DNA from: Methanohalophilus portucalensis
Lineage (GTDB): Archaea > Halobacteriota > Methanosarcinia > Methanosarcinales > Methanosarcinaceae
Assembly: GCF_002761295.1 (NCBI RefSeq)
Contig: NZ_CP017881.1
Coordinates: 619,087-683,086, forward strand
DNA length: 64,000 nt
Direction: 5' to 3'
A model generated the notes under the pieces. That model was not told the origin of the DNA, made no database searches, and saw only the letters and a program-made list of their open reading frames with translations. Made by a program: the position numbers and the translations under genes. Positions 35,026 through 36,547 of this stretch are shown here, in pieces (positions within the stretch are counted from its first letter, which is position 1; every line of letters starts with the position of its first letter).

Positions 35026-36186
35026 TTAATTAATTATGTCTATGATAGAACCGCCATTGTCAGAAGATCGATTCATTGGTTCGACTACCTGACGGCTTCC
35101 GTTTGGGACCTTTGTATAACGTGATTCAGTATTCTTTTCTACAATATCGGCCTGATATTGAGGTCCGAGTACCTGTGCTGACTGCACTCCGGTCATAATG
35201 GCCATTACACGAATCTTTCCTTCATAGTCATCGCGAATTCTGGCTCCCCAGATTACATTTGCATTTGATGACAATTCATATGTCAGGGATGCTGCAACTT
35301 CTTCAGCTTCCTTGAGGCTCAGGTCCGGCCCTCCGGTAATATGTACAAGGCTACCTGTGGCACCGCGGTAATCGACATCGAGAAGTGGGTGATTCAAAGC
35401 TGCCCTTACTACATCTTCGCTCTTGTCCTGATTCTTACTTTCCCCTACAAGCATTACGGCCACGCCACCACATCCCATAATAGCACGGATGTCTGCATAG
35501 TCCAGATTGATAAGGGATGGCTGTGTAATCGTTTCAGTGATGCCCTTTACGGTTTCAGCGATTAGCTGATCCATTACTGAAAATGCCTGCTCTATAGGGA
35601 GGTTTGGTACATAGTTGAGAAGCCTGTTGTTGTCAAGTACAATAACAGTATCTGCTGCAAGGCGGAAATCCTCTATTCCCTCTTCAGCTTTCACAGCACG
35701 GGCCCTTTCTACCCTGAAAGGACTGGAGACCATGCCTACTACAATTGCTCCCTGTTCTTTTGCTATATCAGCCACAACGGGGGCAACACCGGTACCGGTA
35801 CCTCCTCCCATACCTGCAGTTACAAAAACAAGGTCACTTTCCTTGAATACCTCTTCAAGGGTTCCACGGGCAAGGTCTGCTGCTTTGGCCCCGACTTCCG
35901 GGAAGCCACCCGCACCAAGTCCACGAGTTAAGGTTTTACCAACAAGGATCTTCTTGTCAGCACGTATGTGATCAAGATGTTGTTTGTCCGTATTTATTGC
36001 AATAGTTTCGGCACCTTCGATACCGATATTATAAAGACGGTTGATGGTGTTGTTTCCGGCGCCTCCGCAACCAACAATGGTTATTCTGGGAAGTCCGAAT
36101 TCAAAATCTTCTTCATCTTCAAAATTCTGGCGATACTCTCTTTCCTGTTCTGATAGTTTCAATGCATCTTGCACTATTGATTGCAC
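35026..36186 (-). CDS. ftsZ: Cell division protein FtsZ
   Basis: 386 residues from the GTG at 36186. This start has GAGGGGAT 4 bases before it and gives the N-terminus (V/M)[14 protein letters not shown] typical of archaeal FtsZ1; the TTG ten codons earlier is a poorer choice. GTP-binding blocks are [33 protein letters not shown] (tubulin signature, about residue 130) and the T7 loop [13 protein letters not shown]. It polymerises into the division ring. It is preceded by a ribbon-helix-helix gene in the same orientation and has a hairpin terminator. Confidence 0.96.
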
Positions 36187-36228
36187 ATTCATCCCCTCTG
36201 ATGATTCATGACTCAACGGCCTTCAAAA

Positions 36229-36405
36229 TCACGACATGGCACTCAGTATCTCCGATCTGCGGAGAAGCTTTTCACCCCTATCGTCAATTAATTCTCTCAC
36301 AGCCGTCCGTATTGCTTCGCTTGCGGACGGGAATTCGCCCTGAGCTACCATATAATCGATCATCTCCAACTGTTGTTCCGGAAGTCTGATCGTTATTCTT
36401 TGCAT
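36229..36405 (-). CDS. Ribbon-helix-helix transcription regulator (CdrS-like)
   Basis: 58 residues. The start chosen is the ATG at 36405, behind GAGG at 8 bases; a longer frame to 36441 would run into the upstream repeat array. The protein opens with the beta strand MQRITIRLPEQQLEMIDYMV, then GEFPSASEAIRTAVREL, a standard RHH (CopG/Arc) DNA-binding fold. Size, sequence style and location right before ftsZ resemble the haloarchaeal division regulator CdrS. It probably controls this operon through the repeats upstream. Confidence 0.85.
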   Translation of the reverse strand: MQRITIRLPEQQLEMIDYMVAQGEFPSASEAIRTAVRELIDDRGEKLLRRSEILSAMS

Positions 36406-36421
36406 TTGTGTAGCCTCGGGG

Positions 36422-36505
36422 GTCTGACATGTGACAGACATAAGTCTGACTTAAAGCAGCCAAGCATCTGCTTTCTGTCTGACTATATTCTGACGGTTGT
36501 CTGAC
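36422..36505 (-). repeat. Array of TCTGAC repeats in 11-bp register upstream of the RHH-ftsZ operon
   Basis: GTCTGAC occurs at 36422, 36444, 36477 and 36499, and TTCTGAC at 36488. All distances are multiples of 11 bp (22, 33, 11, 11). The missing positions hold weaker copies (GACAGAC at 36433, ATCTGCT at 36466, AGCAGCC at 36455). The array thus covers eight turns of 11 bp on one face of the DNA. It lies between the TATA box (36511-36520) and the start codon, spanning the expected transcription start. It is a probable operator for a cooperative RHH repressor. Confidence 0.75.
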
Positions 36506-36510
36506 TTATT

Positions 36511-36520
36511 ATTTATAAAT
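36511..36520 (-). promoter_or_regulatory. TATA box of the RHH-ftsZ operon
   Basis: ATTTATAAAT (36511-36520), a palindromic TATA element, lies about 110 bases before the chosen ATG. Transcription should start near 36490, inside the TCTGAC repeat array. That gives an untranslated leader of roughly 85 bases. Confidence 0.6.
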
Positions 36521-36547
36521 AGTTGTATATAAGGGTATCTATTTATG

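Follow-up and report, generated by a model that had tools for sequence, protein, structure and literature searches.

How the level and timing of FtsZ are controlled in archaea is an open question, and the small ribbon-helix-helix (RHH) regulators CdrS and CdrL have been studied in haloarchaea. In the methanogen Methanohalophilus portucalensis, a small RHH gene and ftsZ are preceded by a row of short repeats in 11-bp register, and the question raised by this locus is what binds such a row and to what effect. The features below lie in the window, that is, the whole stretch of 64,000 nucleotides that was analysed, and are listed in the direction of transcription.

36526..36532, reverse strand: TATA box TTATATA, 27 nt ahead of the first unit, a distance identical in all Methanosarcinaceae/ANME-3 loci
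36499..36505, reverse strand: array slot 1, GTCAGAC (6/6), coinciding with the predicted transcription start
36488..36494, reverse strand: array slot 2, GTCAGAA (5/6)
36477..36483, reverse strand: array slot 3, GTCAGAC (6/6)
36466..36472, reverse strand: array slot 4, AGCAGAT (3/6), weak, as in most ANME-3 relatives (mainly AGCAGAC)
36455..36461, reverse strand: array slot 5, GGCTGCT (3/6), weak
36444..36450, reverse strand: array slot 6, GTCAGAC (6/6)
36433..36439, reverse strand: array slot 7, GTCTGTC (5/6)
36422..36428, reverse strand: array slot 8, GTCAGAC (6/6), with 16 nt from its end to the RHH start codon
36232..36405, reverse strand: cdrS-like gene for a 58-aa RHH protein (Pfam RHH_1, 33.4 bits), stop codon 36229-36231
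35026..36216, reverse strand: ftsZ, second gene of the operon (TIGR00065, 409 bits; Tubulin and FtsZ_C domains)

The repeat row and the operon behind it

The array is a series of eight successive 11-bp slots (36422-36505), the unit being a 7-bp palindrome, GTCNGAC, with a 4-bp spacer, and it spans the RHH-ftsZ leader, reaching from the predicted transcription start to near the start codon. Slot 1 is placed on the expected transcription start because of its distance from the TATA box. The original prediction had described five copies of a TCTGAC unit, and they are indeed found where it put them (on the forward strand, GTCTGAC at 36422, 36444, 36477 and 36499, and TTCTGAC at 36488), at distances of 22, 33, 11 and 11 bp, all multiples of 11. 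The sequence and the 11-bp register of that unit hold, with one refinement: it is a palindrome (in extended form T-GTCNGAC-A) rather than a directional TCTGAC. Partial copies had been recognised in two of the gap slots, GACAGAC (36433) and ATCTGCT (36466), to which a third, AGCAGCC (36455), has to be added. In a matrix pooled from 368 slots, the dyad symmetry extends to flanks that lie outside the search pattern (T-GTCNGAC-A), and the centre base and the spacer are free.

The eight units together score 40/48 at a period of 11 bp and 17-18 at periods of 8-10 and 12-14 bp, and the maximum reached in 5,000 dinucleotide shuffles was 25. Five GTCAGA sharing one 11-bp phase were found in 0 of 20,000 shuffles (shuffle maximum 2). 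Within the window the array is by far the top-scoring 11-bp-phased place, the next unrelated one scoring 27. A genome scan had been suggested along with the original prediction: a three-unit pattern search of the whole 2.08-Mb genome returned only the array and one site with 3 mismatches, and neither this search nor one for two-unit pairs found a second array. The two-unit pairs amounted to 29 matches (≤2 mismatches) against about 78 estimated by chance, hence they are not enriched and give no evidence for a genome-wide regulon of arrays.

On sequence grounds, the RHH protein is a CdrS homolog, a methanogen/ANME member of the CdrS family. Its best NCBIfam model is that of haloarchaeal CdrS (NF058555; 64.8 bits, E 5e-18; the model is specific to haloarchaea and has a cut-off of 100), and a profile of the methanogen RHH proteins retrieves haloarchaeal cdrS at E about 1e-20. 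Like CdrS, it has a single RHH_1 domain and falls in the range of about 55-60 aa. The AF2 model (pLDDT 89) matches structures of RHH antitoxins, and residues R3, T5 and R7 are invariant in the CdrS-like RHH family. Homologs back the start at 36405 and with it the 58 residues originally given for the first gene; a longer in-frame ORF, from 36441, starts within the array. The gene lies directly upstream of ftsZ on the same strand, and FtsZ comes next in nearly all homologous loci. As for ftsZ itself, the alignment of leaders with those of relatives indicates that translation probably starts at the GTG near 36186 (MQSIVQDAL), behind GAGGGG, rather than at the TTG at 36216.

Conservation of the array and its association with cdrS

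RHH homologs with FtsZ downstream were gathered from public genomes. An array is present in the same place before RHH-ftsZ in other Methanosarcinaceae, in ANME-2 and ANME-3, in metagenome-assembled genomes named Methanocellales and in Methanomicrobiales, the latter including Methanospirillum, Methanogenium, Methanofollis and Methanoculleus. The GTCNGAC units of these relatives are in register and lie after the TATA box and before the start codon of the RHH gene. Of 549 site pairs in 56 loci, 476 are separated by an exact multiple of 11 bp, with a shuffle expectation near zero, and in the downstream coding DNA used as a control the count is 12 of 90. The original prediction had staked itself on the register in related species; with exact register in 56 orthologous loci, the idea survives strongly. 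The span of the array is in most loci 8-9 slots in Methanosarcinaceae and ANME-2 versus 6-7 in Methanomicrobiales, and from the last unit to the start codon there are usually 13-19 nt in Methanohalophilus and in Methanomicrobiales, compared with 22-31 nt in ANME-3 and its neighbours. Eleven loci from several genera can be aligned without gaps through the slots; identity among them is 0.85 in the core, 0.59 at the centre and 0.58 in the spacer (Mann-Whitney p 4e-7). Short or degraded arrays occur in a few loci (L068, L077, L083, L087 and L115).

Three-unit matches were found in 24 non-haloarchaeal genomes of the phylum, and by our tally 22 of them lie at RHH-ftsZ. Two matches in Methanomicrobiales (L224, L225), located in GC-rich sequence between genes, probably have no relation to the array. 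In other families of Halobacteriota (L204-L214) the units follow each other at steps of 10, 11 or 12 bp, so that about one helical turn is kept and the exact 11 bp is not universal. In one ANME-3 genome (L067, about 1787-1890; G111, contig C170), four 11-bp units form an additional row that adjoins a minisatellite with a 12-bp repeat, GTTTGACaacct, present in about 7 copies; both precede a homocysteine-biosynthesis gene, whose ortholog in the window sits just upstream of cdrS-ftsZ.

The array and the RHH gene come and go together. Among 112 genomes of Methanosarcinaceae, the array was found in 11 of 12 with the RHH gene and in 1 of 100 without it (Fisher p 3e-13); in one genome (G037) the RHH gene is kept and the array is degraded. 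Within the genus of the window, ftsZ is intact in four species (L049-L052) but is preceded by the remains of a broken cdrS; these species form a natural knock-out series. They retain the TATA box, and their array is eroding, with 31-35 of 48 core matches versus 40. The identity of their array core to that of intact species is 0.79-0.83, compared with 0.98 between the two intact species. When these two are set side by side, changes fall on 1 of 48 core positions in the units and on 6 of 36 spacer positions, whereas in most pairs of the broken-cdrS species units change at about the same rate as spacers. This contrast rests on few changes, with Fisher p 0.03-0.04.

Relation to CdrS sites and other RHH operators

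The pairing of a homologous small RHH protein with ftsZ in one operon is already known from the CdrS-ftsZ2 operon of Halobacterium salinarum and Haloferax volcanii (PMC7439475, PMC8406309). A literature search on GTCAGAC, RHH 11-bp operators and methanogen CdrS, in which few subscription papers were covered, did not turn up a published account of the long helix-phased array, in line with the novelty originally claimed for it.

In Haloferax volcanii, ChIP-seq found CdrS at 18 sites, including the promoters of ftsZ1 and dacZ; it acts there chiefly as an activator, from upstream positions, and the cdrS promoter is not among its sites (PMC8406309). We found that the upstream regions of haloarchaeal ftsZ1 (24 genomes, six families) carry two GTCNGAC units 11 bp apart: at period 11, a score of ≥11/12 is reached by 20 of 24, and at periods of 8-10 or 12-14 by 0 of 24. 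For dacZ (one family) 5 of 10 do so at period 11 and none at the other periods. Judging from these orthologs of CdrS ChIP targets, GTCNGAC at 11-bp spacing appears to be the same element there and in the array. The two systems differ in layout. The haloarchaeal sites are short and lie upstream of promoters, whereas in Methanohalophilus the array lies within the cdrS-ftsZ leader (6-9 units across lineages) and stands alone in its genome.

The haloarchaeal cdrS-ftsZ2 promoter is bound by CdrL, a different RHH protein (PMC7439475) that has been reported in Halobacteria only. The motif of this promoter resembles the array unit without being identical to it: GTAAGAC-N4/5-GTCTTAC (with a spacer of N3 in two), and further copies lie at a distance of about 60 bp. 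Given its binding at this promoter and its restriction to Halobacteria, CdrL presumably uses the GTAAGAC/GTCTTAC element. The layout is conserved in most haloarchaeal cdrS promoters (L184-L203), with an inverted pair near −120/−109 and further copies at around −182, −57 and −26, spaced by about 60 bp; it is likely to be the CdrL operator and is possibly looped.

RHH dimers put a two-stranded ribbon in the major groove. In the tandem operators of MetJ, palindromic boxes take one RHH dimer each, at a spacing of 8 bp and with 2-5 boxes, and in operators of the Arc/Mnt type Arc dimers sit about 11 bp apart on one DNA face, at two half-sites only. Like the MetJ boxes, the units of the array are palindromes in tandem, and dimers bound at 11-bp steps would share one face as in Arc. 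The omega repressor/ParB of pSM19035 likewise has its RHH dimers lined up on a series of short repeats, with a seven-unit native array among others and at least 4 contiguous repeats for full function (PMC9499535); its heptads follow each other directly, at 7 bp, and are directional, whereas the units described here are palindromic and 11 bp apart. As in tandem operators of the MetJ, omega and Arc type, the sites of the array are equivalent, fixed in spacing and located over the promoter/leader of their own operon.

A candidate operator for cdrS-ftsZ

The original prediction had proposed a long operator through which the RHH protein controls ftsZ. It is supported by the register, by the co-occurrence with the RHH gene, by the decay where this gene is broken, and by the 11-bp unit pairs in front of haloarchaeal ftsZ1 and dacZ, whose Haloferax promoters are occupied by CdrS. 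The explanation that we favour, and consider highly probable, is that several CdrS dimers occupy the array as a helix-phased operator located downstream of the TATA box, which leads to steep negative autoregulation of cdrS-ftsZ. Binding of CdrS to the array is strongly supported by these sequence comparisons. One dimer per unit, cooperativity, the sign of regulation and a role in dose-sensing are steps that we infer from it. The 7-bp palindrome would suit a single RHH dimer, which most likely reads each GTCNGAC through its antiparallel beta-ribbon (R3, T5, R7). Up to eight dimers could thus be aligned from the transcription start to just ahead of the start codon, all on one face of the DNA because the units are one helical turn apart, and able to touch each other. 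Such a row, 3' of the TATA box, would block the loading or escape of RNA polymerase, which is why steep negative autoregulation is favoured; cdrS and ftsZ would be repressed jointly, with a steep dependence on the concentration of CdrS. As the array is very probably the landing site of CdrS, it is likely to be a switch that sets the dose of FtsZ.

Other readings of the same locus have to be weighed. CdrS might bind the array mainly to activate, or to build a centromere-like nucleoprotein complex, given that some Haloferax targets are activated by CdrS and that the partition complex of the RHH ParB of pSM19035 requires at least 4 contiguous repeats (PMC9499535). The array, however, sits in the leader 3' of the TATA box, the usual position of a repressor (Liao et al. 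described archaeal regulators at or downstream of the promoter as usually inhibitory), and the operon has no ParA-like gene, so that we regard this as quite unlikely. It is also conceivable, but improbable, that a protein other than the operon's own RHH product occupies the array, as CdrL, not CdrS, does at the haloarchaeal cdrS-ftsZ2 promoter with its related motif. The confinement of CdrL reports to Halobacteria speaks against this, as do the joint gain and loss of array and cdrS within one genus and family and the GTCNGAC units at the haloarchaeal orthologs of CdrS targets.

The repeats could instead work in the RNA leader, their palindromes folding into a long, imperfect hairpin through which the translation or the stability of the cdrS-ftsZ mRNA is controlled. 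Folding of the 56 leaders is indeed more favourable than that of their dinucleotide shuffles (mean z −2.48), and a small excess persists against permuted units and spacers (mean z −0.71, p 9e-5), but most of the excess is accounted for by the palindromic units themselves. Moreover, a function in RNA does not explain why the phasing is exactly 11 bp in 56 loci, why there are sites 5' of ftsZ1 and dacZ (upstream of the promoter in Haloferax), or why the array co-occurs with the gene of a DNA-binding protein, and we hold it to be very unlikely. An origin by chance or as a neutral minisatellite produced by replication slippage has a negligible probability, even though a genuine 12-bp-unit minisatellite adjoins the short array of the ANME-3 genome mentioned above (L067). 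The core is conserved while centre and spacers drift, adjacent units differ in spacer sequence, unlike slippage products, and the array is conserved across distant orders. With slots that are fixed and ungapped across genera, conservation rules out a minisatellite, and shuffles and conservation together rule out chance.

The CdrS operator reading gives the CdrS family a well-defined candidate for its binding element, GTCNGAC phased at 11 bp, which would be common to methanogens, ANME archaea and haloarchaea. It places a long operator candidate in the leader of the division operon itself, making the control of cdrS-ftsZ a quantitative, testable circuit. A more far-reaching version, which we put forward tentatively and think somewhat doubtful, is that the array acts as a CdrS-counting nucleoprotein filament on the cdrS-ftsZ leader, whose occupancy would render the synthesis of FtsZ ultrasensitive to the amount of CdrS per chromosome copy, the number of units being tuned by lineage. 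It would represent the ancestral control of archaeal ftsZ, with CdrL taking over in haloarchaea through the diverged GTAAGAC/GTCTTAC element, whose sites are spaced by about 60 bp.

Haloarchaea also yielded three-unit matches, none of them at cdrS. Many loci of one haloarchaeal family (f23, L133-L146) share a conserved element, GTAAGAC ... GTGAGAC-N4-GTCGGAC-N4-GTCNGAC, before a small gene with a regulator-like start, which in L138 is followed by carB; the element is possibly a further target of CdrS or CdrL. In another family (f22, L147-L150) a three-unit GTCNGAC array is followed closely by a TATA-like box and by a GC-rich stretch that resembles a hairpin, with no clear gene. This stretch possibly encodes a small RNA, and the locus may be the counterpart of the CdrS-bound RNA gene HVO_1885s of Haloferax.
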